From contig JANWVF010000049.1 in assembly GCA_025056965.1 (NCBI GenBank), forward strand, positions 1 through 43,880: 43,880 nt of DNA, written 5' to 3'. Made by a program: the position numbers and the translations under genes. The stretch comes from Thermoflexales bacterium. Its GTDB lineage: Bacteria; Chloroflexota; Anaerolineae; J036; Brachytrichaceae. Below, piece by piece: positions 4,151 to 32,357 of the stretch (its first letter is position 1; the number at the start of each line of letters is the position of its first letter). The notes below the pieces were generated by a model. The model was given only the letters and a program-made list of their open reading frames with translations, did no database searches and was not told the origin of the DNA.

Positions 4151-5047
4151 ATGTCGCTGACGACTGGGCCGCGACAGCCTGCGGCCATCCCACTCGATTC
4201 GACGGCCGATCGCTCCGCGCAGGGCCGATTCGTTGACCGCCTATCGCAGTGGCCGTGGTGGTTGCTGATCATCGTGTTCTTCGGCGTGTTGATCGTCTGG
4301 AACGTGATGACCAGCGAGCTGTATTCCGCCATCTTCAGCCGGCTGCTGCTGGGTATCGGCATCACCATCTTTACGACACTAGTCGCCTACGGCTTGGCCA
4401 TCGTCATCGGCCTCGTTGCCGGGCTGGGGCGTGTGTCGCACAACCCGATCATCTTCAACATCGCTACGCTCTATGTGCAGGTCATCCGAGGCGTGCCGAT
4501 CTTGGTGCAACTATTGGTGATCGCCTTCGTGATCGTGCCGATTGTCATAGATGCCGTTAACTGGCTGGGCAACGTCCTAGCGCCGCTCCTGGGAGCAGAG
4601 AACTTCCTAGCCCGCACCCAGCCGCAGGATGTACCCTTTCTTACTCGATGCATCATTGCGCTCGCCATCGCCTATGGTGGCTTCCAGGCCGAGACGTTCC
4701 GCGCCGGCATCCAATCCATCAGCAAGGGGCAGATGGAAGCCGCGCGATCACTGGGCATGAGTTACCTGCAGGCCATGCGCTACGTCATCCTTCCACAGGC
4801 CATTCGACGCGTATTGCCGCCCCTCGGCAACGATTTCATCGCCATGCTGAAGGATTCATCGCTAGTATCGGTGCTCGGCGTGCGCGACATCACCCAGGAG
4901 GCGCGCCTCTATGCCTCGGCTTCGTTCCGCTTCTTGGAGACCTATACTTCATTGGCCTTCTTGTATCTGGCGATGACCATCGTCCTATCGTTGGGCGTCA
5001 AGTGGCTGGAGAATCGGCTGAATAATGAGGGACGTGGGCAAGGGTGA
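4151..5047 (+). CDS. Amino-acid ABC transporter permease (HisM/GlnP type)
   Basis: This is an inner-membrane permease of the polar amino acid family with about five to six hydrophobic segments. The first spans roughly residues 35-55. The EAA loop that contacts the ATPase is visible as [23 protein letters not shown]. The preceding [12 protein letters not shown] and the later [12 protein letters not shown] are typical of the HisM/GlnP group. The ATG at 4151 is chosen over a TTG at 4139, which would lie inside the stem of the upstream hairpin. No Shine-Dalgarno sequence is seen before either, so translation may be weak or controlled by that structure. The stop codon overlaps a GTG that opens the longest frame of the ATPase gene, as usual in a coupled operon. 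Confidence 0.9.
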
Positions 5048-5052
5048 GACCG

Positions 5053-5808
5053 ATGAACACGATGCGTCCGCACGACGAACCGATGATCGTCATCAAGCAT
5101 CTGGTCAAGCAGTTTGGCAACCTGCGCGCCGTGGATGACGTTAGCCTGACGGTGGGACGCGGCAAGGTGACCGTGATCATCGGCCCTAGCGGCAGCGGAA
5201 AGAGCACCGTGTTGCGCTGCATCAATCACCTAGAGACCCCTACCAGCGGAGAGATCTGGGTGGACGGCATTCATCTCACGCACAACGCAAAGAACATCAA
5301 TGCGGTGCGCGCTGAAGTGGGCATGGTGTTTCAGCAATTCAACCTCTTCCCGCACCTCACTGTGCTGGAGAACATCACGCTGGCGCAGCGCGTGGTGCGC
5401 AAGCGCAGCGAGGCCGAGGCGCGCGAGATTGCGATGCAGCAGCTCACCCGCGTTGGCATCCCCGAGAAGGCGCGCGCATACCCTAGCCAGCTCAGCGGCG
5501 GCCAACAGCAGCGCGTAGCCATTGCGCGCGCCCTGGCGATGAACCCAAAGATCATGCTGTTCGATGAGCCGACCAGCGCGCTTGACCCGGAGATGATTAA
5601 AGAGGTGTTGGACGTGATGCTCGAGTTGGCGCGCAGCGGCATGACGATGGTGGTGGTCACGCACGAGATGGGGTTCGCGCGAAACGCCGCCGACGAAATC
5701 GTGTTCATGGATCACGGTCGCATCATCGAGCAGAACACGCCGGAGGAATTCTTCACCAATCCGCGCGAAGAGCGGGCGCGGGCATTCCTCAGTCAAATTT
5801 TGCGTTAG
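5053..5808 (+). CDS. Amino-acid ABC transporter ATP-binding protein (GlnQ/ArtP type)
   Basis: This is the cytoplasmic ATPase that powers the importer. Walker A is GPSGSGKST (about residues 44-52), the Q-loop is [10 protein letters not shown], the ABC signature is LSGGQQQR, and Walker B is [14 protein letters not shown], followed by the switch histidine in VVTHEM. The sequence is typical of polar amino acid transporters ([24 protein letters not shown]). Several starts are possible: GTG 5044, overlapping the permease stop, and ATGs at 5053, 5062 and 5083. ATG 5053 is taken because AAGGGTGAG lies just before it. It is the last gene of the transporter operon; feoA follows after about 180 bases. 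Confidence 0.92.
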
Positions 5809-23592: not shown

Positions 23593-25443
23593 ATGCACAG
23601 CTATAGGCCGGAAAACCCGCTCATCGTACAAAGCGACCGCTCGGTGCTGTTGGAAGTGGATAACCCGTCCTACACCGAGGCGCGCGATGCGCTGGCACGC
23701 TTCGCCGAACTAGAGAAAAGCCCGGAATATGTGCATACCTATCGCATCTCGTCGCTGTCGCTTTGGAACGCCGCTGCTGCCGGCTTAACCGCCGATGCAA
23801 TCCTGGCCGACCTGGAGCGTTACTCTAAGTACCCACTGCCGGAGAACATCAAGGTAGACATTCGAGACGCCGTCGGCCGCTACGGGCGGGTCAAACTTGT
23901 GCTGGAAGATGGGCGGATGCTGGTCATCGCCGATGACGGTGCGCTTGCCGAGGAATTAGCCCGCCATCGGTCGTTCGCCCCGCTGGTGAAAGGTCGTCTC
24001 GGGCAGACGACTTTTGAGATAGACCCGTCGCAGCGCGGCCATGTCAAGCGGGTGCTGTTGCAGATCGGCTATCCGGCCGAAGACCTGGCCGGTTATGTGG
24101 ACGGGGCGCCGCTGCATTTCGATCTGCGCCAGGTCACGCTCGGCGGCCAACCGTTCACGTTGCGGCACTACCAAGCTGATGCCGCCGAGGTGTATTGGGC
24201 GCAGGGAAGCGCAGCGGGCGGCAGCGGCGTAGTAGTGCTGCCGTGCGGAGCCGGCAAGACCATCGTCGGCATCGCCGCTATGCACAAGGCGCAATGCGCC
24301 ACCCTCATCCTCACGCCCAACACCGTCGCCGTTCGGCAGTGGATTCGCGAAATTCTCGATAAGACCACGCTCACCGAAGATCAAGTCGGCGAATACAGCG
24401 GGCTGAAGAAGGATGTGCGGCCGGTGACGATTTGCACGTATCAGGTGCTGACGTATCACCCACGCAAGGGGTCGGCGGTGCGAGATCAAGGCTCGGAGCC
24501 GGAAGAGGGTCACACGGCGCCGGCTTCTAACTCGCGTAAGTCGGCCTCGCGCAAGCGCGCGCTGCCGAAGCTCAGCGAGTACCCGCACATGGCTCTGTTC
24601 AACAGCATGGACTGGGGGCTCATCATCTACGACGAGGTCCATCTGCTGCCAGCGCCGGTGTTCCGCATGACCGCAGAGATTCAGGCGCGCCGCCGACTGG
24701 GCTTGACCGCTACGCTGGTGCGCGAGGACGGCTTGGAAGGTGACGTGTTCTCGCTGGTCGGGCCGAAGAAGTACGACGTGCCGTGGAAGGACCTGGAACG
24801 CCAAGGGTGGATCGCCACTGCTGAGTGCCATGAGATTCGCGTCTCGATGGCCGATGAAGATCGTATGGAATATGCCATCAGCGACCATGATCAAAAATAC
24901 CATTTCGCCGCGACCAACCCACGCAAATTGCAGATCGTCTCGATGCTGATGGCCAAGCACAAGGATGACGACGTGCTGATCATCGGTCAATATCTCCCGC
25001 AGTTAGAGCAAATCGCTCGGCGACTCGATGCGCCGCTGATCACCGGTGAGACGCCGGTGCGCCAGCGCGAAAAGCTGTTCCAGCAATTTCGCGAGGGACA
25101 AATTCGCTGCTTGGTGCTGTCGAAGGTGGGCAACTTCTCGATTGACTTGCCCGACGCCAACGTGCTGATCCAGGTGAGCGGGATGTTCGGCAGCCGACAG
25201 GAAGAAGCTCAGCGCCTAGGGCGCGTGCTGCGCCCCAAGCAGAACGGCCTGCTGGCGCACTTCTACACCATCGTCACACGCGATACGCTCGATCAGGAAT
25301 ACGCCGCCAAGCGCCAGCTCTTCCTCACCGAGCAAGGCTACCATTACGATATCCTCTACGAGGAGGAAGTGCCTGGGTTTACCCCAGCGCTGATGGCCGT
25401 GAACGCGACACCCGTGCAGCGCAGCGTCGGTGCGCTCCAATAA
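23593..25443 (+). CDS. XPB/ERCC3-type superfamily 2 DNA helicase
   Basis: The 616-residue helicase has an N-terminal damage-recognition-like region (about 1-180), then the two motor domains. Motif I is LPCGAGKT (216-223), motif II DEVH (347-350), motif III LTATLVRED with the XPB-specific RED (377-379), and motif VI QEEAQRLGRVLRPK (536-549). These match bacterial XPB proteins, which unwind DNA 3' to 5'; their role in repair is not settled. A Ser/Arg/Lys-rich insertion at about 290-327, between motifs Ib and II, is not typical. The gene heads a three-gene operon: its stop overlaps the longest frame of the next gene. TTTAAT about 20 bases upstream could be the -10 box. Confidence 0.93.
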   Translation: MHSYRPENPLIVQSDRSVLLEVDNPSYTEARDALARFAELEKSPEYVHTYRISSLSLWNAAAAGLTADAILADLERYSKYPLPENIKVDIRDAVGRYGRVKLVLEDGRMLVIADDGALAEELARHRSFAPLVKGRLGQTTFEIDPSQRGHVKRVLLQIGYPAEDLAGYVDGAPLHFDLRQVTLGGQPFTLRHYQADAAEVYWAQGSAAGGSGVVVLPCGAGKTIVGIAAMHKAQCATLILTPNTVAVRQWIREILDKTTLTEDQVGEYSGLKKDVRPVTICTYQVLTYHPRKGSAVRDQGSEPEEGHTAPASNSRKSASRKRALPKLSEYPHMALFNSMDWGLIIYDEVHLLPAPVFRMTAEIQARRRLGLTATLVREDGLEGDVFSLVGPKKYDVPWKDLERQGWIATAECHEIRVSMADEDRMEYAISDHDQKYHFAATNPRKLQIVSMLMAKHKDDDVLIIGQYLPQLEQIARRLDAPLITGETPVRQREKLFQQFREGQIRCLVLSKVGNFSIDLPDANVLIQVSGMFGSRQEEAQRLGRVLRPKQNGLLAHFYTIVTRDTLDQEYAAKRQLFLTEQGYHYDILYEEEVPGFTPALMAVNATPVQRSVGALQ

Positions 25444-25456
25444 CTGGTTTGCTGCG

Positions 25457-27439
25457 ATGGGAGAGGCTCAACCCGCAACCGGCGAGGTGAAATCGGCATC
25501 GGCCTGGCCCGTTGCCGCGCCGTTCCGCACCGGCATTCCATCGCTCGCATCGCTGATCGAAGCTGAGTTCAGCGGCGCCCAGTTGCGCGACCTGGCGCGC
25601 TGGCTCGGCGCGACGCCTAAAGGCTATTCGCGCGTGAAGTGGGTGGAGCAGGTCGTCGCAGCGCTCAACGATCGGATCGCGCGCGCTGCCGAATCGCCGG
25701 ATGCGCTGCTGGAAGGACTAAGCGCGGAACAGCAGGAGTTCGTTCGCCGCCTGCTTACCGCGCGAGACCACGAGGTGCCGATCGCGCGCGGCATGGCCGC
25801 CGATTTATGGGCACGAGCTGCCGAGCGCTCGAGCGATTCCCGGCTCGACGCCGATCGCAGGCTGACCGAGTTGATCGAATCCCTGCGCCGCTGCGCCCTG
25901 CTCTTCCCGACCCGCGCGGCGGTCCTCACCGGCTTGCGCGACGTGTATTACCGCTGGCTGCCGCTCAACGGCGCCCGCATCCCGGTGATGCGCTGGCCCA
26001 TCCAAGCCGAGTCAGCGGTGCGCGTAGACGACTCATCTGCGTCGCCGGTTGCCAACATCCTCGAGCACTTCGAGATCTTTCTCAACGCCATCGCGCGCAG
26101 CGGCGCTACCTTGCGCACGCCGCTGCCGGCCCACCGGCAGGCTGCATGGCTGCCTTGGCTGCGAGATTGGGAGCACGACGCCAACGAAGCCGAGCGCGTG
26201 CTGCGCTCGCGACCGAATTGGGCGCCCGATCCTCACACCGGCATCAGCGTCCTGATGTTCAGTCCACTCGCGCCGGAATCGGCAGCAACTTTAGAAGACC
26301 AGACCGGCCTAACGACGCCGCAGATCGAGTTCCTGTTCGCCATCGCGTGCGCCCTACAACTCATCGAACCGCCCGACGGCGCGCTGCGCGTGCGCGCGCG
26401 CAACAGTGCCCTGGAAGAGTGGCTCGTGCTGGCCGATGCGCACAAGCTTCGGCGCGCTTGGACGGCCTGGAGCGAGCAAATCCTAGACGGCTTGGAAGTG
26501 CGCAACGCCATCAGCAACTTGAAGTCGGCGCAGCGCTTCCGCGTGATGCGCGCGATCGGCGCGCGCCACCTGACGCCCGGCGTATTAGCCGCCGAATGGT
26601 GCGCGCTGCGGCGCTACATGGTGCGCGTGCTGCGCGGCCTGCCGGTGAACCAGTGGGTTCGATGGGACGATCTGCAAGCTAGGCTCTTCGATTTTCATCC
26701 TGAATGCGTTTGGACGTTCACTACGAAGGCGGACTGGTGGTTTGTCCTCGCCGCGACGGGCGCGCGGATGAATTTGAAGCAGGCGGAAGAGTGGCGCGCC
26801 AGCGTCGGCGTCATCCTCGAACACATCATCCGCGATTCGCTCGCCTGGTTCGGCGCGGTCGAGGTGCGCCATACGCCGGAAGGCCGGTTGGATGCCTTTA
26901 AGGTCACCCCGCTGGGCGAGTGGCTGATCGAGGGGCGACAGGATGCGCTGCCCGCCGAGGCAGCGCCGAAGCTCCGCTCGGTTGCGCCGATCGAATGGCT
27001 GGATGGGCACACGCTGCGACTGCCGCCGGCGCCGGATCGCGCCGCGCTGGTAAGCCTGGTGCGCCGGTGTGCCGAGGCCACCGACGCGCCGTTTACCTAT
27101 GTGTTTACCCAAGGGAGCATCGAGCGTGCGCTGTCGGAAGGCCTATCCCTTGCCGAGGTCGCGGCGCAGTTCAAATCTGCCGATGCTTCGCTGAGTCCGG
27201 CGGTCGGCGAGCTGTTCGGGCAAATCGCGCAGCGGCACGGCCGCGTGCGCGTGTATGAATCGCTCGCCGTGCTAGAACTGGCCGATGAATTCGCCGTCAA
27301 GGAGTTGGCTGCCAGCACCAGCCTCATGAAACATGTGGTGTATCAGCTCTCCTCGCGCGCTTTCGTCCTGCACGAAGACGATTTGGAGACATTGATCGAG
27401 GAGCTGCGAGAGAAAGGCTATATGCCGAGGGTAAGGTGA
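25457..27439 (+). CDS. Helicase-associated protein A (Helicase_C_3-like C-terminus)
   Basis: The large, Ala/Arg-rich protein of about 660 residues has no ATPase motifs. An N-terminal helical part includes LIEAEFSGAQLRDLARWLGA, a SAP-like or winged-helix-like segment. The middle has repeated winged-helix patterns (YSRVKWVEQVVAAL, VNQWVRWDDLQARLFDF, FKVTPLGEWLIEG). The last 140 residues (from about TQGSIERALSEGLSL to the end) align with the end of the next protein. This belongs to the Helicase_C_3 type of XPB-associated proteins; mycobacterial XPB also has such a neighbour. ATG 25457 is chosen, but GTG 25430, overlapping the helicase stop, is possible; neither has a good ribosome-binding site. 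A DNA-binding partner of the helicase is the likely role. Confidence 0.75.
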   Translation: MGEAQPATGEVKSASAWPVAAPFRTGIPSLASLIEAEFSGAQLRDLARWLGATPKGYSRVKWVEQVVAALNDRIARAAESPDALLEGLSAEQQEFVRRLLTARDHEVPIARGMAADLWARAAERSSDSRLDADRRLTELIESLRRCALLFPTRAAVLTGLRDVYYRWLPLNGARIPVMRWPIQAESAVRVDDSSASPVANILEHFEIFLNAIARSGATLRTPLPAHRQAAWLPWLRDWEHDANEAERVLRSRPNWAPDPHTGISVLMFSPLAPESAATLEDQTGLTTPQIEFLFAIACALQLIEPPDGALRVRARNSALEEWLVLADAHKLRRAWTAWSEQILDGLEVRNAISNLKSAQRFRVMRAIGARHLTPGVLAAEWCALRRYMVRVLRGLPVNQWVRWDDLQARLFDFHPECVWTFTTKADWWFVLAATGARMNLKQAEEWRASVGVILEHIIRDSLAWFGAVEVRHTPEGRLDAFKVTPLGEWLIEGRQDALPAEAAPKLRSVAPIEWLDGHTLRLPPAPDRAALVSLVRRCAEATDAPFTYVFTQGSIERALSEGLSLAEVAAQFKSADASLSPAVGELFGQIAQRHGRVRVYESLAVLELADEFAVKELAASTSLMKHVVYQLSSRAFVLHEDDLETLIEELREKGYMPRVR

Positions 27440-29295
27440 GCACAGAACATCAGCAATCCCGCATCGCGCAGGCCCCCTCGAACGAGGCCACGGCCGAGAC
27501 GACGCTCTCCATCATGCAGTCCAGCGCCACCGACTTCCAGCGTGACCTGGGCCGCTACTGGCGTTACGTGCGGCGAGTCGGCGGCATCGCGTTGACTCAG
27601 GAGGGCCGAATCTACAAGAGTCAATTCAAGATGCTGGCCGCGGCGATGAACGCAGCGGAAGCGCCGGCTGATGAGCGTGACAGCGGGCGGCTGTGGTTCA
27701 TGCGCCGGTTGTTGCAAGCCATGCGCGAGTTGAACGAGGCAGAGCAAGGCCGCTTCATCGTCGCCAATCCAAGTAGCCAGCTGCTCGGCATGCCGATGGC
27801 TCAACGCGTGAAGTGGACGTTCGAGACCTGGCGCGATGATGCTGCTTGGAATGAGCTGTTGCGCTTGCCGCTTCAGGTGAGCGGCGGATATGCGGGCCGA
27901 GAAGGGGCGGCTGCCTTGAGCCGGGCGCGCCTGACACTCCTGCGGGCGATCGGCCGACTGACGCAGATCAACCGACAATCCGGTGGATGGGTCGCGCTGG
28001 CCGATCTCATCGCGCATATCAAGCGCAACGACTACGCCTTCTTGTTCGAGCGCCGGCATCGCGGCAGCGTCATCCCCTACGCTTCGCCCTACCAAGGGAC
28101 GAATAACCCGTATGGGCTTACCTTTGAGGCGGTGAAGCACGAGGCCAACGGCTGGGATTTGGTCGAAGGAGGGTTCATCGTCAACGTGTTGACCGAGCCG
28201 TTATGGTGGATGGGGCTGGTGGAGCTGGGTTATGCGCGCGACGTGCAGGCTGCCGGCGTAGAAAACACGCCCCCGACTGCCTTTCGCCTGACGCCATCAG
28301 GCGCATGGTTGATCGGAGGTGGCGACCCGCCGACCTTCGTCGAAAGCGGCGGCAAGCTCATCGTGCAGCCGAACTTCACCGTGCTGGCGCTCGAACCGAT
28401 CAGCGACGCCGTCTTGAGCGACCTGGACCATTTTGCCGAGCCGCAGGGCGGCGATCGAGTCATCGCCTATCACCTGACGCGCGAGTCGCTCTACCGCGGC
28501 CAGCAGAGCGGCTGGACTGCCGCGCGCGTGATCGCCTTCCTCGAGGTACATCAGGGCGGGCCGGTCCCGGCCAACGTGCGTCGCTCGCTGGAGGAGTGGG
28601 AGGTCGCCCACCGGCGGATCACCTTTTACCGCAACGCCTGCGTCGTGCAGTTCGCCGACGCGGAAGCCGAACAAGCGTTGAGCGACGTGCTTGCGCCGTT
28701 CGCGCCGCGCGCCATTGGTCCGCGTTTCAAACTGGTCGAGGGCCGGAACGCCAAGGAAGTCGCGGCCGCACTGCGCGAAGCCGGCTGGACGCCGGTGCTC
28801 CAGCCGGCCGGCGATCAAGCGACCGAGGGTGTATTGCGCACCGACGACGAGGGCACGGTCACGTTCACCCAGGCCGCGGCCAGCGTGTATGCTTTGGGCA
28901 AGCTGGCGCGCTTTGCCGCGCTACCGGCGGCCGATGAGGCAGGCCGCGCCGCCGCGCATATCACCGACGCTAGCGTGCGCGCTGCCATGAGCGCCGGCAT
29001 GACGCTCGATGAGTTGCTGGCGACTCTGGCCGAACTTCACTCCGGGCCGCTTCCGGTCGCGCTGGAGCAAAAGATTCGCGCATGGGCCAGCTTCTTCGGC
29101 AACGCTGCCTTCCATCAGGTGACGCTGCTCGAGTTGTCCAGCCAGACCGTGTTGGCCAACCTGCTCGACGATCGTGAGGTCGGCCCGTATCTGAAGCCCA
29201 TCGAGGGTAGCGTGAGACCGTTGGCGCTGGTGCTGCCGGCGCACGCCGAGGTCGTGCGCGCCATGCTGCGCGAGCGCGGCATCAACGTCGCCTAG
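27436..29295 (+). CDS. Helicase-associated protein B (Helicase_C_3-like)
   Basis: The 619-residue protein starts at a GTG that overlaps the preceding TGA (GTGA), so translation is coupled. N-terminal winged-helix-like units include WRYVRRVGGIALTQEGRIYK and LGMPMAQRVKWTFETWRDD. Residues about 304-430 carry the Helicase_C_3 domain: KLIVQPNFTVLALEP, ESLYRGQQSGWTAARVIAFL and NVRRSLEEWEVAHRRITFYR. The last 120 residues (TDASVRAAMSAGMTLDELLA onward) resemble the end of protein A. No ATPase motif is present. With protein A it probably forms accessory subunits of the XPB motor. Its stop codon shares CTAG with the stop codon of the opposing gene. Confidence 0.77.
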   Translation: MSTEHQQSRIAQAPSNEATAETTLSIMQSSATDFQRDLGRYWRYVRRVGGIALTQEGRIYKSQFKMLAAAMNAAEAPADERDSGRLWFMRRLLQAMRELNEAEQGRFIVANPSSQLLGMPMAQRVKWTFETWRDDAAWNELLRLPLQVSGGYAGREGAAALSRARLTLLRAIGRLTQINRQSGGWVALADLIAHIKRNDYAFLFERRHRGSVIPYASPYQGTNNPYGLTFEAVKHEANGWDLVEGGFIVNVLTEPLWWMGLVELGYARDVQAAGVENTPPTAFRLTPSGAWLIGGGDPPTFVESGGKLIVQPNFTVLALEPISDAVLSDLDHFAEPQGGDRVIAYHLTRESLYRGQQSGWTAARVIAFLEVHQGGPVPANVRRSLEEWEVAHRRITFYRNACVVQFADAEAEQALSDVLAPFAPRAIGPRFKLVEGRNAKEVAAALREAGWTPVLQPAGDQATEGVLRTDDEGTVTFTQAAASVYALGKLARFAALPAADEAGRAAAHITDASVRAAMSAGMTLDELLATLAELHSGPLPVALEQKIRAWASFFGNAAFHQVTLLELSSQTVLANLLDDREVGPYLKPIEGSVRPLALVLPAHAEVVRAMLRERGINVA

Positions 29296-32200
29296 CCCAG
29301 GCTGGCCGTGAGGTAAGCAATCAGGAATTCGTCGAGCGCACCGGCCAGCACCTTCTTCGGCTGGGTGCTGGTCAGGCCGGTGCGCGAGTCCTTCACGCTC
29401 GCCTGCTTGAAGAGCGTATAGACGCGCACCTGGTCGGCCAGCTTCAGCGGCTCGCTGTCGTTCGGCCGCGCGGCATCAACAAGCTGCTGTTGCGCGAGCA
29501 GCCAACGCGGCACATAGCGCCGCGCATGCCCCTCGATTTCGTCGGCCGATAGGGCGTGACGCCAGACGATCGTGCGGCGGCCACCGGACTCGCCGGGCTT
29601 GGCCAGCGTGATCGTCGTCTGGCGCAACAGTTTGTCGGTCAACATGCCTGCCTCCCGCATCGGGCGATGTTCGATTTTGAGGTCGCTGGTGCCGTTGCCC
29701 GGCATGGGCGCATCGGGAAAGACCTCGACCCGCGCCCACACGCTGATGCGCTCGCCGTCGCGCTTGGGCGACTGGCGCACCAGCCGATGTAATCCGCTTT
29801 CGCCCTTGAGCAGAGCGTATGCGCCGAAGCCCACGATGTTGATCGTTGCTTCCAGCACGCCGCCGTCGGCGGGCGATTCGTTGACCAGCGCGGTGGAGAA
29901 GCCGCGTGATTGGGCCCAAGCGGTATACATCAGCGCTACGTCGCGCGCCCATTCCGCCGGTATCGTCGCGTCCTCATTGGCCGCGACGATGGCGCGCACG
30001 GTGACGAAGGCGCCGGCTTGATCCTCCTCGCTGCGCAGGCACAGCATCGTCTCGGCCAGCGGCAGCTCGCGCACCAGCTCGGCGTATAGCCGATTGGCCT
30101 CGGCCAGATCGTCGGCGGCAGCCTTGCCGCGCGTCGCGCTCGCGCGCTTCAGCGCTTCGGCGCATTGCTCAAACAGGCGGCGGATGTTCTCGGCTTGATC
30201 TACGCGCTGCGAGAGCAAGTTCATCGTCTCGATCTGAGCCGTCGCCTCCTGCGGATGCTGCCAGAAGTCAGGCCGGCCGATTCGCTCGATGAGGTCCGAG
30301 ACGCGCTCCTTCAGCTCGGCGACGCGATGCTGTTCTAACATGCGCTCGATGCGTTCACCCAGCGCTTCGAGCTGAGACCGCAGCTCCTTGGCGGACAGGG
30401 GCTTGAACGACGCGATGTGACGTTGAACCCGCGCATCGTCGGCCTCGTCACCCTCGTCCACTACCCACACGGCGATGTCGCCGCCACGCACGATCAGGCG
30501 CACGGTCGCGCCATCCGGCAGCCGCCGGCGGGCAATGTGACGCGCCAAGGGGTAAGTGATGCTGCGTTCGATCTGCCGTTTCAGATACCGCGCGCCAAAG
30601 CGCAGATCGTAGCCGCGCTCGACCAGCAGATCAATCACCGAGTCGTCCACGCTGACGCGCAGGCCACGCCGAGCGATGCCTTCGCGGGCGATGACATCGG
30701 CCACCTCGCGCTGGGCGATCTGGCGGATGATGTTGCGGGAGAGCGGCTTGAAGAAGCACACGGCATCGAGGCGATTGATGAACTCGGGCCGGAAGTAGGT
30801 CTCACTCTCGCGGATGATGGCGCGCTCGGCTTCCTCGACTGGGTCGCCCACCCGAAAACCGATCTGCGGGCCGAGCAGCTGCGTGCCTAGGTTCGACGTG
30901 AGCACGATGACGGTGTTGCGCAGGTTGAGCTCCTCACCCTGGCCGTTGATCAGGATGCCTTCGTCGAACAGCTGGAGAAAGCGCTGATACATATCCGGGA
31001 TGGCCTTCTCGAATTCATCCAGCAGCAGCACGGCGAACGTCTGCTGCGCCATGCGCGCGCTCAGCATGCCCAGCCGCTCAAGCTCGGACGTGCCGTGCGG
31101 ATCACCGAACATCCGATCCACTGCCGTCCACTGGTCGTTGAAATCGGCCATGTTGAAGCGCACGATGCGCTCCTCGCCGCCGAAGAGGAAGCGGGCCAGC
31201 GCCTTGACCAGCTCGGTTTTGCCCACGCCCGTCGGGCCGAGAAAGAGGAAGACGCCCATCGGGCGCTGCGGGTTGTTCAGGCGCGTGCGGACGAGGGCGA
31301 TCATGCGCAGCACGGCCTCGACTGCTACCTCCTGCCCAAACACGCGCTGGGTGAGCATCTTGCGCGCTGCTTCTTCGTCGTACGGCACGTCGTCGTTGAC
31401 CAGGAACTCCGGCAGCCCGCTGCGCTGGATGAAGCGATTGCGTACGTCGGCGCGGGTGAGCGTCTTGGCCGCGCCGTTTCCCGCGCCGGTCGTCGTCAGC
31501 GTGTCCTTCAGCATGTCCAGCGCCGATCCCGGCAGCGCTTCGTTGAGCATGAAGCGCGCTGCCAGTTCAACGGCTTCATCGCAGGCGTCCTCCCCGATGC
31601 CGATCTCGTGAATGATCTCCAGATCTTCCGCCGCGCGCCGGACGACGGCACAGGCCGCTTCGCGCGTCATCGCGTCTACTTTGATCGGCGCGAAAAGGCT
31701 GCGCAACCCCGGCGCTTCGGTAAATACGCGCTCCAGCCCACGGCTGCGCGCCTCGAACAGCACGCGCGGGTGCATGCTCTGCAGCAGGTCGCCTAATACT
31801 GTAGCCAGGTCAGGCCCCGCTTCGGTCATGGACACGCCTAGGCCGAGCGCGGTGTGAAAGTCGCGCAGGAAGAGGATGACGTTCGACTGGACGAGCGACG
31901 CCAGCAGCCCGTTGATCTCATTCACCCACTGATGCAACCCGCCCAGGCCGTTCATGAGGCGGCTAGGCGTGGTCTCGAACACGCGCAGCCCCTTGAGCGA
32001 CTCGGGGCACTCGGCGCGGGTGATGCGGTTGGCAACGTGGTGGGCGACCGTCGTCTTGCCGCTGCGCGGCCCACCGATGAGCATGGGGAAGAGCGGCCCC
32101 GGCGAGGCCAGTGCGTGCAAGGCCTCCTCCACCTCGGCATCGCGGCCATAAGCGACATTCAGCTTGCCTTCCAGGGCAAGCCGCGTCAGGTCGGTACAAA

Positions 32201-32324
32201 AGGTGCTCAGCCGAGTGATGAGGTCTGGCTTGGGCTGCCCGGCATGATCTGAACCGGCGAACGAAGGGGGCGGCACCGAACGGCCTACATCAGTCGGCGG
32301 AAGAGACGATTCGAGAACGGCCAT
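29292..32324 (-). CDS. Double AAA+ Clp-like ATPase fused to a GGQ-less release-factor-2-like domain
   Basis: One open frame of 1010 residues joins two families. D1 AAA+ (about 50-290) has Walker A GGPRSGKTT (84-92) but a degenerate Walker B (LFLRDFH). D2 AAA+ (about 325-620) is ClpA/ClpB-like and complete: GPTGVGKTE (363-371), VLLLDEFEKA (432-441), sensor-1 TSNLG, arginine finger FRPEFINRLD (511-520) and sensor-2 GAR (577-579). An IGF tripeptide (488-490) sits where ClpP-docking loops lie. Residues 643-1010 match release factor 2: GRPDFWQHPQEA, KGESGLHRLVRQSP, and VKDSRTG with VLAGALDEFLIAYL at the end. SPF is SPK and GGQ is missing. ATG 32324 is preferred to TTG 32336. A role in ribosome-linked protein remodelling is my inference. 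Confidence 0.88.
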   Translation of the reverse strand: MAVLESSLPPTDVGRSVPPPSFAGSDHAGQPKPDLITRLSTFCTDLTRLALEGKLNVAYGRDAEVEEALHALASPGPLFPMLIGGPRSGKTTVAHHVANRITRAECPESLKGLRVFETTPSRLMNGLGGLHQWVNEINGLLASLVQSNVILFLRDFHTALGLGVSMTEAGPDLATVLGDLLQSMHPRVLFEARSRGLERVFTEAPGLRSLFAPIKVDAMTREAACAVVRRAAEDLEIIHEIGIGEDACDEAVELAARFMLNEALPGSALDMLKDTLTTTGAGNGAAKTLTRADVRNRFIQRSGLPEFLVNDDVPYDEEAARKMLTQRVFGQEVAVEAVLRMIALVRTRLNNPQRPMGVFLFLGPTGVGKTELVKALARFLFGGEERIVRFNMADFNDQWTAVDRMFGDPHGTSELERLGMLSARMAQQTFAVLLLDEFEKAIPDMYQRFLQLFDEGILINGQGEELNLRNTVIVLTSNLGTQLLGPQIGFRVGDPVEEAERAIIRESETYFRPEFINRLDAVCFFKPLSRNIIRQIAQREVADVIAREGIARRGLRVSVDDSVIDLLVERGYDLRFGARYLKRQIERSITYPLARHIARRRLPDGATVRLIVRGGDIAVWVVDEGDEADDARVQRHIASFKPLSAKELRSQLEALGERIERMLEQHRVAELKERVSDLIERIGRPDFWQHPQEATAQIETMNLLSQRVDQAENIRRLFEQCAEALKRASATRGKAAADDLAEANRLYAELVRELPLAETMLCLRSEEDQAGAFVTVRAIVAANEDATIPAEWARDVALMYTAWAQSRGFSTALVNESPADGGVLEATINIVGFGAYALLKGESGLHRLVRQSPKRDGERISVWARVEVFPDAPMPGNGTSDLKIEHRPMREAGMLTDKLLRQTTITLAKPGESGGRRTIVWRHALSADEIEGHARRYVPRWLLAQQQLVDAARPNDSEPLKLADQVRVYTLFKQASVKDSRTGLTSTQPKKVLAGALDEFLIAYLTASLG

Positions 32325-32357
32325 ACCGAATTCCAACGACGTCTAGTTCAGACCCCC

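Follow-up and report, generated by a model that had tools for sequence, protein, structure and literature searches.

Can an Hsp100 ATPase and a peptide release factor share a single polypeptide, and what might such a protein do? The question is raised by a gene on the minus strand of contig JANWVF010000049.1 of a Thermoflexales bacterium (Chloroflexota; GenBank assembly GCA_025056965.1), whose 43,880 nucleotides are the window analyzed here. A first-pass annotation, made from the letters and their open reading frames, described the gene as two Clp-like AAA+ modules followed by a domain resembling release factor RF2 but without its GGQ loop. We find that this fusion of Clp AAA+ modules with a complete RF2-like module is real. 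As far as can be judged from sequence, its architecture suggests that it is a machine for protein remodelling directed at the translation apparatus.

Architecture of the fusion protein

The minus-strand frame is open without interruption from 32336 to 29292. The first ATG, where the first annotation placed the end coordinate, lies at 32324, at residue 5 of 1014, and is the likely start codon of the gene; residue numbers of the modules count from the TTG at 32336 (1014-residue frame). Pfam finds AAA_2 at residues 358–525 (E value 1.6e-36), ClpB_D2-small at 532–613 and PCRF at 675–864 (E value 3.2e-25), and reports no match to the RF-1 (GGQ) domain in the fusion protein. NCBIfam assigns residues 1 to ~620 to ClpB/ClpA and the remainder to prfB. 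The protein has two AAA+ modules, here D1 and D2, followed by the RF2-like module. The features of the locus are as follows.

29292..32324, minus strand: whole gene, 1010 residues from the ATG; the same continuous frame is found in many genomes
31383..32210, minus strand: AAA+ module D1 and its lid, about residues 43–318; Walker A GGPRSGKT kept, arginine fingers lost
31854..31874, minus strand: D1 Walker B position, LFLRDFH, with RD in place of the canonical DE
30462..31361, minus strand: AAA+ module D2 and D2-small, about residues 326–625; ATPase site intact
31215..31238, minus strand: D2 Walker A, GPTGVGKT
31062..31112, minus strand: D2 pore-loop position; GYVG missing
31014..31031, minus strand: D2 Walker B, VLLLDE
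30855..30863, minus strand: IGF tripeptide at the position of the ClpA/ClpC ClpP-docking loop
29295..30410, minus strand: RF2-like module, residues 643–1014, with domains 1, 2, a degenerate 3, and 4
29745..30314, minus strand: PCRF domain match of Pfam, residues 675–864
29952..29984, minus strand: position of the alpha5-tip GAGG[TV][DE], about residues 785–795; motif lost
29763..29771, minus strand: SPK where RF2 has the stop-codon-reading SPF
29631..29657, minus strand: REAGMLTDK in the position of the GGQ loop
32359..32387, minus strand: promoter-like site TTGCCA-17-CATTAT, 35 bases 5' of the ATG, a consensus match only

The C-terminal module had been traced to RF2 over its whole length, from the N-terminal region to the very C-terminus, and profile searches confirm this. 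The RF2 profile matches the module with an E value of 6e-40, and the NCBIfam score is 137 bits for prfB against 57 bits for prfA, which rules out an RF1 origin. Searches against solved RF2 structures also give significant matches: a profile of the C-terminal 372 residues of close orthologues matches E. coli RF2 over positions 10–371 (E value 7e-31), and a wider family profile matches across the whole module (E value 5e-60). An AlphaFold model of the module (predicted local distance difference test, pLDDT, 83; predicted template modelling score, pTM, 0.76) agrees in fold. It aligns with E. coli RF2 (1gqe) at a Z-score of 26.1 and a root-mean-square deviation of 8.7 Å over 346 residues, with a different placement of domains, and with B. 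subtilis RF2 (9fy1) at 1.4 Å over 152 residues. The model speaks for fold compatibility more than it offers independent proof, because six of the 11 rows in its alignment were RF2s from viral contigs; the claim of RF2 homology is carried by the sequence searches. The solved-structure relatives found for the module belong to the RF1/RF2 superfamily, the absence of aeRF1-type proteins from that list being no proof. Full-length AlphaFold prediction (5 sequences) was poor (pLDDT 50, pTM 0.27) and was left unused.

The residues lost from the module are those by which a release factor works. The GGQ loop and SPF are absent from all 21 fusion sequences, three of which contain the letters GGQ elsewhere than in the loop. 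The alpha5-tip GAGG, a second stop-codon-reading element whose loss had escaped the first reading, is gone as well, as are TSF and HPY. The residues kept are the domain 1 tryptophan, a G, the domain 2 E-x-G-x-H motif, R-x-Y, D-x-R-T and the G-x-x-D-x-F helix. Of the residues invariant among the RF2s used in the comparison, the fusions keep 50–59% in domain 1, 37–49% in domain 2, 7–27% in domain 3 and 59–71% in domain 4 and the C-terminus; for comparison, the window genome's own RF1 keeps 93% of those in domain 3. The module is not expected to read stop codons or, without GGQ, to hydrolyse peptidyl-tRNA, in agreement with the earlier view that it can hardly terminate translation. Two details of that view need revision. 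The GGQ loop is not swapped for an unrelated segment: REAGMLTDK occupies the same position at near-equal length, retains one G, and the model still builds domain 3. The replacement of SPF by SPK is correct only for part of the genus; SPE is found in one relative and TGK in the sister genus.

In the ATPase half, D1 retains Walker A; its Walker B DE is found in none of 14 fusions, and the ERRF arginine fingers are lost. Three other Clp-like proteins in the comparison have no DE there either. In D2, every member but one (G405) retains Walker A and B, sensor 1, the arginine finger and sensor 2. The position at which ClpA and ClpC bind ClpP carries [ILVW]G[FL] in 20 of the 21 fusions, with W first in some, a feature that the first annotation overlooked, and ClpP was found in 16 of 16 fusion genomes checked. 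The D1–D2 span measures 574–604 residues in the fusions versus 697–701 in ClpB-like proteins. ClpB, the top NCBIfam match, is ruled out as the identity of this half by the lack of a ClpB-length M-domain and the presence of the ClpP-like loop. By its motifs, the ATPase half is of the ClpA/ClpC type, with an intact D2 and a degenerate D1.

Two observations on related proteins may be added. In the G405 fusion (L058:4178-7102, minus strand) the D2 ATPase site and arginine finger are degenerate (GKI, no PEFxNR), and the RF2-like half persists. In other Clp-like proteins of the same class (L017, L020 and L028), Walker B of D1 is degenerate and the D1 pore loop is shortened, but the D2 loop is still of the GYVG/GYIG type.

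Distribution and descent of the fusion

Searching ~730 Chloroflexota genomes with a profile of the module and then with a full-length profile, we detected the fusion architecture in 15 genomes among the 396 of the class and in 15 among 400 drawn from the phylum. In total it occurs in 28 genomes of 11 families across Chloroflexota. Four further genomes of the genus have orthologues of 76–85% identity, and one genome of the sister genus has an orthologue of 59%; Candidatus Roseilinea is among the named records. The distribution is patchy even within the genus, where four of nine genomes are without the fusion. The genes in G296 and G670 are cut at contig ends, so that their RF2 half is unseen or only partly seen. 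The possibility that two genes were joined by an assembly error or by chance read-through, raised together with the first annotation, is refuted by the same frame in many independent genomes, including single-contig assemblies (G006, G477) and a three-contig assembly (G493), and by the agreement between the trees of the two halves; what probability it retains is negligible.

The fusions fall into three groups that differ in the fate of the GGQ domain. Group A, to which the window protein belongs (974–1048 residues), keeps the length of the domain with the motif gone. In group C (~1013–1035 residues) its place is taken mostly by charged, low-complexity sequence, as read by eye. In group B (~1150–1190 residues) it is deleted outright, a short linker joining domain 2 to domain 4; hydrolysis is therefore not the job of the module. 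In groups A and C, domains 1, 2 and 4 are close in length to those of RF2; in group B, domain 2 carries insertions. Group B fusions also have an N-terminal extension of ~190 residues without a Pfam match, in which two similar beta-rich repeats can be seen by eye. Examples with the extension are:

L097:5942-9400, minus strand
L098:5128-8610, plus strand
L099:5986-9555, plus strand

Whether the tree is built from the RF half (21 fusions with nine RF2 and one RF1) or from the AAA half (14 fusions with 15 Clp proteins), the fusions form one clade with 100/100 support. Groups B and C form a clade in both trees (support 100/99 and 94/89). A single old fusion, after which the gene was inherited with losses or transfers, is the likely history and best explains why each half is a single clade; the branching order inside group A is unsure because some branches are long. 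Simple pairwise NG86 estimates of the ratio of nonsynonymous to synonymous substitution rates (dN/dS) are 0.03–0.19 for the RF half and similar for the AAA half, and 0.12–0.28 for domain 3 of Roseilinea. These values indicate purifying selection on both halves. Together with the pattern of residues kept and lost, they show that the module is under selection and yet is no release factor: selection has kept the remainder of the RF2 in this family, whereas the catalytic domain has been eroded and is entirely gone from one subfamily.

Companion factors and gene neighbours

Ordinary termination factors exist alongside the fusion. The window genome encodes a separate canonical RF1, RF2 and ArfB, and all 16 fusion genomes checked have class-1 release factors. 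Apparent losses of canonical RF2 (G342, G302, G027) concern draft assemblies, one of which, G342, holds a 135-residue partial RF2-like frame; we reject such a loss. A replacement of trans-translation by the fusion is likewise unsupported, as SmpB occurs in 30 of 30 genomes, with or without the fusion. Co-occurrence of RqcH with the fusion gave no clear pattern.

No constant gene neighbour or operon partner was found among the fusion loci. In Roseilinea the fusion gene lies tail to tail with an XPB-helicase operon. The window has three adjacent plus-strand genes (23593-29295) for an XPB/Rad25-type repair helicase and two Helicase_C_3 proteins, one of which is weakly similar to the TFIIH subunit Tfb2 (E value 0.004). 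The three may represent a small bacterial module of XPB and its partners. In a lineage of group A (G493, G486, G458), the fusion follows a gene read by eye as pyrR, and in G493 and G486 a gene resembling pyrB by eye is next downstream. The window contains no CIRCE heat-shock element and no Rfam match.

We found no viral relatives of the RF2-like module, and the plasmid matches were ordinary RF2/RF1 and one Clp-like protein. Two viral contigs encode stand-alone RF2-like proteins without the GGQ domain: L113:4026-4559 (IMGVR_UViG_3300025687_004659) and L114, ~5001-5507 (IMGVR_UViG_3300044837_000085). These keep the stop-codon-reading elements (GAGGTE or a close form, SPY/SPH, RHTSF), and each was a singleton in a close search. 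They are possible decoy release factors or deletion artefacts.

Possible functions and known systems

Ribosome rescue and quality control in bacteria have mostly been described through transfer-messenger RNA (tmRNA), ArfA/ArfB, RqcH and SmrB/MutS2. We found no published description of a Clp–RF2 combination in the full-text open-access literature, which is weak evidence of absence because only open-access papers were covered. Both modules belong to known families; the joined architecture, its phylum-wide spread and the graded loss of the catalytic domain appear to be new. With a dead RF2 covalently attached, an Hsp100 motor would tie protein remodelling directly to the termination machinery, and this link would become testable with one protein.

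The explanation we favour, tentatively, is an Hsp100 ring that a non-hydrolysing module derived from RF2 targets to translation complexes. The subunits would form a hexamer in which D1 serves as a nucleotide-binding scaffold and D2 as the motor. The RF2-like modules would bring the ring to translation complexes without peptide release, candidate targets being partners of RF2 or ribosomes whose A site is empty or aberrant. The D2 motor could then remodel or remove a component of the target and possibly pass it to ClpP via the [ILVW]G[FL] loop. The decay or deletion of the GGQ domain alongside retention of domains 1, 2 and 4 speaks for this explanation, together with RF2 homology along the entire module, D2 motor motifs intact in every member but one, the ClpP-like loop and the presence of ClpP, the single clade and low dN/dS of each half, and coexistence with canonical RF1 and RF2; the step from resembling RF2 to binding ribosomes is one that we infer. 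Its more specific form, an ATP-driven ribosome quality control in one polypeptide that finds stalled or A-site-empty ribosomes through the dead RF2 and extracts a component for ClpP, is rather doubtful.

Several observations weigh against the favoured explanation. The lost residues include those that contact the codon and the decoding centre (GAGG, SPF, TSF, HPY), so that any docking on the ribosome cannot be canonical, and the residues kept may represent only the fold core; the earlier suggestion that the module may still dock in the A site is weakened accordingly. The D2 GYVG pore loop is missing in 21 of 21 fusions, and the D1 pore aromatic, kept in most of groups B and C and present as F in part of A, is absent in Roseilinea. 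Any model of substrate threading has to face this puzzle: of the proposed unfoldase that pulls on its substrate, the AAA+ pair stands and the pulling is weakened. Nor is a translation gene a constant neighbour of the fusion.

The loss of ribosome-facing motifs would suit an RF2 fold co-opted away from the A site, which binds RNA (for example mRNA 3' ends) or a client or adaptor and delivers it to the Clp ring. We consider this almost as likely as the targeting of translation complexes, and rank it just below, because PrfB3 of land-plant chloroplasts, a paralogue of RF2 with neither SPF nor GGQ, has taken another job as an mRNA-binding protein, on the petB 3' untranslated region (PMC5897788). 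Against co-option, the near-RF2 lengths of domains 1, 2 and 4 in groups A and C and the 37–71% of RF2-invariant residues kept there may exceed the needs of a free scaffold. A hibernation or occlusion factor, whose RF2 module plugs the A site of idle ribosomes and whose ATPase loads or removes it, has a parallel in Balon, a release-factor-like A-site binder without GGQ that hibernates bacterial ribosomes (PMC10901736). An Hsp100 motor would be unusual in a plug, group B does not have the domain that would reach the peptidyl-transferase centre, and no hibernation gene is a constant neighbour, all of which makes this role improbable. Less probable still is a ring acting on RF1, RF2, ArfB, RF3 or their partners, with the RF2-like module as a decoy or recognition copy. 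The coexistence of canonical RF1 and RF2 with the fusion is in its favour, but class-1 release factors are not known to dimerise.

Among known proteins, RF2 (PrfB; PCRF PF03462 and RF-1 PF00472) is homologous to the entire C-terminal module and shares its predicted fold. It has SPF, the alpha5-tip GAGG and GGQ, all of which are missing in the fusions, where the module sits behind an Hsp100 and group B is without the GGQ domain. ClpA/ClpC-type Hsp100 proteins resemble the other half in D1 and D2, the intact D2 ATPase, the ClpP-docking-like loop and the want of a ClpB-length M-domain; unlike them, the fusion is without the D1 Walker B, the arginine fingers and the D2 GYVG, and adds the RF2 module. 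PrfH and ArfB are likewise non-standard bacterial relatives of class-1 release factors, but both keep GGQ and neither is fused to an ATPase. PrfB3 differs in standing alone, without an ATPase, and Balon in its aeRF1-type fold, its hibernation with EF-Tu and the absence of an ATPase fusion. Dom34/Pelota is release-factor-like and non-hydrolysing, and Vms1 is release-factor-like and works with the AAA+ protein Cdc48 (PMC6514570). The logic of the fusion resembles that of Pelota and of the Vms1–Cdc48 pairing, although the aeRF1-type fold of Dom34/Pelota and Vms1 is unrelated to bacterial RF2 and Cdc48 is a separate polypeptide. Together with Balon, these systems show that release-factor-like proteins without hydrolysis, or with an AAA+ partner, serve at ribosomes elsewhere. 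If the ribosome quality control role were true, the Chloroflexota fusion would be a single-protein bacterial counterpart of Pelota and Vms1–Cdc48.
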